Both the position numbers and the translations under genes were made by a program. Source: an uncultured Monoglobus sp. (GTDB lineage: Bacteria > Bacillota > Clostridia > Monoglobales > Monoglobaceae). Taken from it: a DNA stretch of 64,000 nucleotides. The notes under the pieces are model-generated. The model worked only from the letters and a program-made list of their open reading frames with translations, was not told where the DNA came from and did no database searches. Shown in pieces: positions 63,519 to 63,764 of the stretch (position 1 is its first letter; every line of letters begins with the position of its first letter). The DNA lies in contig CANRHV010000002.1 of assembly GCA_947630505.1 (NCBI GenBank), forward strand, positions 1 through 64,000, in the 5' to 3' direction.

Positions 63519-63547
63519 TTGACCTTTTGGAAATAATATGATAGAAT
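63519..63547 (+). promoter_or_regulatory. Promoter of BspA-like gene
   Basis: TTGACC-N17-TAGAAT. Confidence 0.7.
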
Positions 63548-63553
63548 GTAATC

Positions 63554-63686
63554 ACCACATAATTCCTAAAATTTAATAACTATAATTTTTCCTGTAAGTG
63601 GGTACATTTTTGTGTTCGGCAAAAATGTACACTCTATCCTATGTACTCGTATTTACAGGAATATAACGATTTAGGAATTGTGTGGT
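63554..63686 (+). promoter_or_regulatory. Triple-nested palindromic leader
   Basis: 63554-63570/63670-63686, 63589-63597/63653-63661, 63602-63612/63620-63630 complementary arms. Confidence 0.7.
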
Positions 63687-63710
63687 AACAATCGGAGCTG
63701 TGCATTTTTC

Positions 63711-63743
63711 GTGTGTGGTTCCGTTTGCGACCACACACTTTTT
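63711..63743 (+). terminator. Terminator hairpin inside the 5' leader, upstream of the RBS
   Basis: GTGTGTGGT-TCCGTTTGCG-ACCACACACTTTTT. Confidence 0.7.
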
Positions 63744-63764
63744 ATTTTCAGGAGGTACATTTTT

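Follow-up and report, generated by a model that had tools for sequence, protein, structure and literature searches.

A probable family of riboswitch-like transcription attenuators, found mainly before surface-protein genes of uncultured gut Clostridia

Transcription-terminator riboswitches, such as the yxjA/pbuE purine and preQ1-I pseudoknot classes, place a conserved folded domain in a 5′ leader, couple it to mutually exclusive antiterminator and terminator hairpins, may set a pseudoknot next to the platform, and serve regulons of many unlinked genes. The leader described here resembles them in each of these respects, but whereas riboswitch platforms usually vary, the positions of its terminator, antiterminator and promoter are conserved along with the domain. 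Unlike the known riboswitches, it matches no Rfam family and reaches 26 copies per genome, mainly before genes for surface proteins. LoaP-dependent processive antitermination leaders are likewise Firmicute leader RNAs that control termination; in contrast to them, the present leader occurs in genomes that, where tested, lack LoaP. The c-di-GMP riboswitches (GEMM-I/II) have Clostridial surface-protein regulons, and this trait is shared by the present leader, whereas a match to their Rfam families is absent.

The leader lies near the end of the window, by which we mean the whole 64,000-nt stretch of uncultured Monoglobus DNA that was analyzed. The promoter, three nested stems, terminator, ribosome-binding site and start codon were all present where an initial annotation of this DNA, made from the sequence alone, had placed them (Table 1), with the terminator hairpin and its T-run directly before the ribosome-binding site. 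The P1 arms are 17 nt long and match at 94%. The 242-nt stretch carrying these elements folds at −79.9 kcal/mol as compared to −47.4 (sd 3.9) for shuffled sequence (z −8.4), and none of 200 dinucleotide-preserving shuffles was as low. The downstream protein is, as proposed, of the BspA type (Pfam LRR_5, E 2.4e-78) and has a signal-peptide-like N-terminus. The match to covariance model R2 is the sole one within the window.

Table 1. Elements of the leader and its downstream gene, in window coordinates.
Feature	Position	Strand	Basis
Sigma-A type promoter, TTGACC-17-TAGAAT, part of the conserved unit	63519..63547	+	−10 spacing across copies
Whole structured leader RNA	63553..63743	+	covariance model R2 match, 144 bits
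P1 5′ strand (closing helix), ACCACATAATTCCTAAA	63554..63570	+	stem search, covariation
P1 3′ strand, TTTAGGAATTGTGTGGT	63670..63686	+	stem search, covariation
P2 5′ strand (variable stem), TTCCTGTAA	63589..63597	+	stem search, folding
P2 3′ strand, TTACAGGAA	63653..63661	+	stem search, folding
P3 5′ strand (U-run), GTACATTTTTG	63602..63612	+	stem search, covariation
P3 3′ strand (invariant A-run), CAAAAATGTAC	63620..63630	+	stem search, alignment
PK-A 5′ strand, P3 3′ arm and conserved bulge, AAAAATGTACACTC	63621..63634	+	side-by-side copies, partner swaps
Switch element E, AACAATCGGAGCTGTGCATTTTTC, common to PK-A and AT	63687..63710	+	alignment, footprint overlap
Antiterminator hairpin AT, 63689-63705 with 63711-63727, loop TTTTC	63689..63727	+	MFE folds
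Intrinsic terminator, stem 63711-63738, T-run 63739-63743 (T5)	63711..63743	+	covariation
Ribosome-binding site, AGGAGG	63750..63755	+	sequence
BspA-like secreted leucine-rich-repeat protein, start (ATG 63765; runs off the window)	63765..64000	+	Pfam

The nested structure is well supported by comparison among copies. In alignment A1, which holds 35 diverse copies and from which models R1 and R2 were made, 93% of the cells of the nested structure are paired and 22 pairs distributed over P1, P2, P3 and the terminator (T) show double changes; double-change cells numbered 121, whereas shuffles gave 37.7 and slid controls never more than 32. P1 is 98.7% paired, with double-sided changes in seven of nine core pairs, and the terminator stem covaries too. 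P2 varies in length among copies, and in P3 a conserved bulge on one side (N-GCUCUAUUUUC) comes after the invariant A-run. Element E, situated between P1 and the terminator, typically reads AGCAAUCGGAGCUAUGCAUUUUUC. The −10 box ends 5–6 nt before the first model position of the RNA in 238 of 271 copies, a peak not seen in shuffles, and because this spacing is fixed the 5′ end of the RNA would coincide with the transcription start, in keeping with the proposal that transcription begins at the first base of the outer palindrome. Judged from these alignments, the 5′ leader has a conserved, covarying, aptamer-like domain of the sort that defines a transcriptional riboswitch.

An antiterminator had also been suggested, formed by the 5′ ACCACAT of P1 and the GTGTGTGGT arm of the terminator. 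The idea of a switch held up, as pairing of E with the terminator 5′ arm and loop covaries, but its location did not. On the alignment the ACCACAT/GTGTGTGGT pairing is at shuffle level (84.8% vs. 84.3%), partner swaps within genomes give it z −3.9, which does not improve on the z −3.5 of a negative control, and position 4 of P1, which varies among C, G, A and U, is compensated inside P1 and not with the terminator arm. What that reading overlooked is that the family is multi-copy and widespread and that its conserved E has two partners. Side-by-side reading of copies makes this dual complementarity visible: E can pair with the P3 3′ arm and bulge in a pseudoknot with P1 (PK-A), or with the terminator 5′ arm and loop in a hairpin with a U-rich loop (AT). 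In the window, the predicted energies are −15.1 kcal/mol for AT, −14.4 for the terminator and −15.9 for PK-A (63621-63634 with 63695-63709).

Both pairings were examined by partner swapping, in which the energies of own partners are compared with those of partners exchanged between copies, independently of any alignment (178 copies, 48 genomes). Own partners were clearly preferred for AT (−14.0 vs. −10.0 kcal/mol, z −20.9) and for PK-A (−16.5 vs. −13.2 kcal/mol, z −17.6). Preference persisted when swaps were limited to the same genome as a control for lineage (146 copies, 24 genomes; z −13.5 for AT and −11.3 for PK-A), with negative controls at z +1.3 and −3.5. The two signals are partly linked because both pairings use shared bases in E; the bases of E that PK-A leaves free nevertheless follow the terminator loop (z −5.1 to −6.8), more weakly than full AT does, and have no affinity for P3. 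In A1 alone, a narrow set of 35 sequences, the covariation of AT is slight. Footprints of the two pairings on E overlap by 3 nt or more in 98.9% of copies, and by this sequence evidence PK-A and AT are mutually exclusive partners of E.

Folding of whole transcripts is consistent with a finely balanced decision. With transcripts truncated 7 nt short of the terminator's end, every one of the 178 copies had AT in its MFE structure; for full-length transcripts, 99 MFE structures contained AT and 79 the terminator. Mean model energies are nearly equal (AT −15.9, T −14.8, PK-A −16.5 kcal/mol), those of AT and T correlate, and none of 5000 permutations gave as tight an AT–T difference. Because AT and T are close in energy and track each other, AT occupies the truncated transcript, and the footprints overlap, the leader has the properties of a poised attenuator; as predicted from these folds, it is a domain linked to a mutually exclusive terminator and antiterminator, as in riboswitches.

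We thus propose that, once a transcript has been initiated at the first base of P1, the P1-P2-P3 domain, which covariation supports, would form first, and that E would then pair either within PK-A or within AT. If E were held in PK-A, the terminator would form and the gene would be off; if PK-A were absent, AT would form first and RNA polymerase would read into the gene. The direction assigned to these two outcomes is inferred. The balance would presumably be set by a cellular signal; a metabolite or ion that binds the P1–P3/PK-A domain is the likeliest candidate, and a protein is less likely.

The covariance-model search that the initial annotation had called for yielded a large family. Model R1 gave 28 matches in the source genome, two of which are opposite-strand shadows, leaving 26 distinct copies, and it was positive in 99 of the 392 genomes sampled from the class. 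Genomes of other families hold up to 23 copies. A DNA search, which scored at most seven candidates per genome, gave as many as eight related stretches per congener, and weaker ones came from elsewhere in the class, in other families. In a 399-genome sample of the phylum, R2 found no copy except in the window's own genome. A pattern scan of named genomes, confirmed by the model, placed the leader in uncultured Monoglobus, Oscillospiraceae, Ruminococcaceae and further Clostridia, including one copy in Ruminococcus bromii ATCC 27255. Nearly all bearers are MAGs, and the analysis is at sequence level with energies as model values. Most sampled congeners hold several copies; G008, a nearly complete genome of a close relative in the same genus, in one contig, has none, so the family is dispensable, and that strain offers a natural comparison. 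A phage origin was also considered, and none of the four stretches returned by a pattern scan of viral contigs was confirmed by the covariance model.

No family in Rfam 15 (including T-box, GEMM, ydaO and 6S) matches any leader copy tested. The RNA families of Weinberg 2017 should be included in Rfam. The motif does not appear in the open-access main text of papers on Clostridial RNA motifs and of two large Breaker-lab screens. Of the thousands of RNAs predicted in the microbiome survey of Fremin and Bhatt (2021; PMC8040213), 508 lie directly upstream of genes; the text of that survey holds no match to the regulon of the present leader, which could nonetheless be among those predictions without a name. 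Taken with the attenuator-like behavior of the sequence, these comparisons bear out the suggestion of an undescribed cis-regulatory leader, and we consider that the leader region probably belongs to an undescribed family of riboswitch-like transcription attenuators.

The genomic settings of the copies are mostly, though not uniformly, those of a leader. Among 262 copies with enough downstream sequence, an ORF follows directly in 163, its start codon a median of 21 nt past the T-run. A tandem copy comes next in 19 cases and a convergent gene in 37, and 43 copies have other arrangements; the last two groups mean that not every copy is a simple leader. By a simple hydrophobicity rule, 86% of direct targets of at least 150 aa have an exported-looking N-terminus, as compared to 24% of other ORFs at the same loci. 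BspA LRR_5 repeats occur in 38 of 135 distinct downstream proteins, and further domains include copper-amine-oxidase N-terminal, dockerin, S-layer-homology and RCC1; AbrB-type regulators are also found. The leader probably switches such surface proteins, together with small proteins, on and off in response to a signal.

The small proteins (∼50–85 aa) recur downstream of the leader, and those put to Pfam had no match. One, a Cys-rich protein of ∼61–83 aa (IID.TGI.LTPGN.GKDC.GNG...ECCCDECDY), recurs behind leaders L131, L152, L157, L158, L134 and L172; the L152 representative was the one submitted to Pfam and gave no match. Another, a family of 77–78 aa (MNIKVELLKNYISDF...), stands directly behind L116, L120, L124, L127, L071 and L146 in several genomes, and its L116 representative likewise had no Pfam match. 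Two complete copies in tandem were seen at L033, L036, L030, L031, L051, L055, L080, L118, L155, L168, L202 and L229, the second beginning ∼50 nt or more past the first terminator and having its own promoter where looked at.

The same sequences could be read in other ways. A multi-copy palindrome bearing a promoter and terminator by chance, i.e., a mobile or repetitive element of the MITE or REP type, would account for 26 copies in one genome and for ends that are inverted repeats. Such an element should consist of near-identical copies at random sites without conserved gene spacing; instead, the copies have diverged with compensatory changes in covarying stems, each bring a promoter and a terminator of their own, and keep fixed positions relative to promoter and ribosome-binding site. 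The ortholog in a sister genome is syntenic and 96% conserved, as compared to 88–89% for its flanks, and no transposase lies beside the copies inspected. Occurrence as a transposable palindrome at unrelated sites, which the initial annotation had named as grounds for abandoning the idea of a leader, is thus not what we observe, and we regard this origin as extremely improbable. Attenuation by a leader peptide, with a ribosome stalled in the leader setting AT against the terminator, gains something from a 13-codon ORF in the window (ATG 63626) and from the 114 of 178 copies in which an AUG closes the P3 A-run. However, 64 copies have no AUG there, the peptides would range from 1 to 40 in length, and an SD-preceded ORF of at least eight codons exists in only 27 of 178 RNAs; with neither a conserved short ORF nor a conserved AUG, this mechanism is very unlikely. 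The same attenuator might instead be switched by an RNA-binding protein, a dedicated antiterminator or repressor, in place of a small ligand. The bulge and E, single-stranded and highly conserved, would suit a protein, and the regulon is functionally mixed, but the general candidates both fail and no candidate protein was found: none of the 17 family-bearing genomes tested has a LoaP above cut-off (7 of 16 family-free genomes were positive), and CsrA is missing from all 20 genomes tested, which excludes both. We consider control by a protein possible but unlikely.

It is also conceivable that each promoter/RNA/terminator unit is chiefly a trans-acting sRNA, with standalone copies acting on leader copies and gene adjacency being secondary. 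The copies that precede convergent genes (37) or tandem copies with their own promoter (19) fit this idea, as do the tails: the 90 nt after convergent copies are complementary to the P1 3′ strand and E of family members beyond shuffled tails (by −3.8 kcal/mol, n = 27), in some cases strongly to one same-genome partner, as for the L162 tail with the L193 leader (−43 kcal/mol) and that of L153 with L201 (−40 kcal/mol). Against it, the 163 direct copies lie so close to an RBS-bearing start codon that there is no room for another promoter, and a plain sRNA has no use for a poised AT/terminator pair; that the family is mainly trans-acting is therefore doubtful. In five standalone copies (L162, L153, L170, L223 and L095) the tail is strongly antisense to the P1 3′ strand and E of another copy in the same genome. 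A self-complementary role in cis was rejected, since tails pair with their own RNA no better than with others. Standalone copies could act in trans, which we offer as a lead and not a result. A class-wide network, in which leaders would sense a signal through the PK-A domain while standalone antisense tails hit E of specific same-genome leaders, is a speculation that we hold to be rather improbable.

For the attenuator that we favor, c-di-GMP is an unlikely signal because three family-bearing genomes (G011, G019 and G295, one of them 96% complete with 14 copies) have no GGDEF protein; a diguanylate cyclase is thus not present in every RNA-bearing genome, as a c-di-GMP responsive leader would entail. 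Also, no leader copy occurs in a congener that has 14 GGDEF domains. Some genomes carry more than 20 copies, which is unusually many for the regulon of a leader RNA, so the signal is likely of global importance. If our reading holds, a large part of the surface and secreted proteins of many uncultured gut Clostridia is under the control of a single RNA family; these bacteria are Monoglobus relatives and Oscillospiraceae/Ruminococcaceae, with the single copy in R. bromii. The three-way competition among E, P3 and the terminator offers precise mutations, making this orphan switch class directly testable.

Elsewhere in the window, a 6S (SsrS) RNA gene (6976-7169, minus strand) is the sole Rfam match at gathering level. 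Just upstream of the leader, at 63184-63340, lies an interspersed palindromic repeat (GGGGAGAGCTGTCACCGAAGGTGACTGAGAGGGG and neighbors), and similar repeats occur close to several other leader copies in the same genome. Similarity between the upstream flanks of copies is probably explained for the most part by these repeats.
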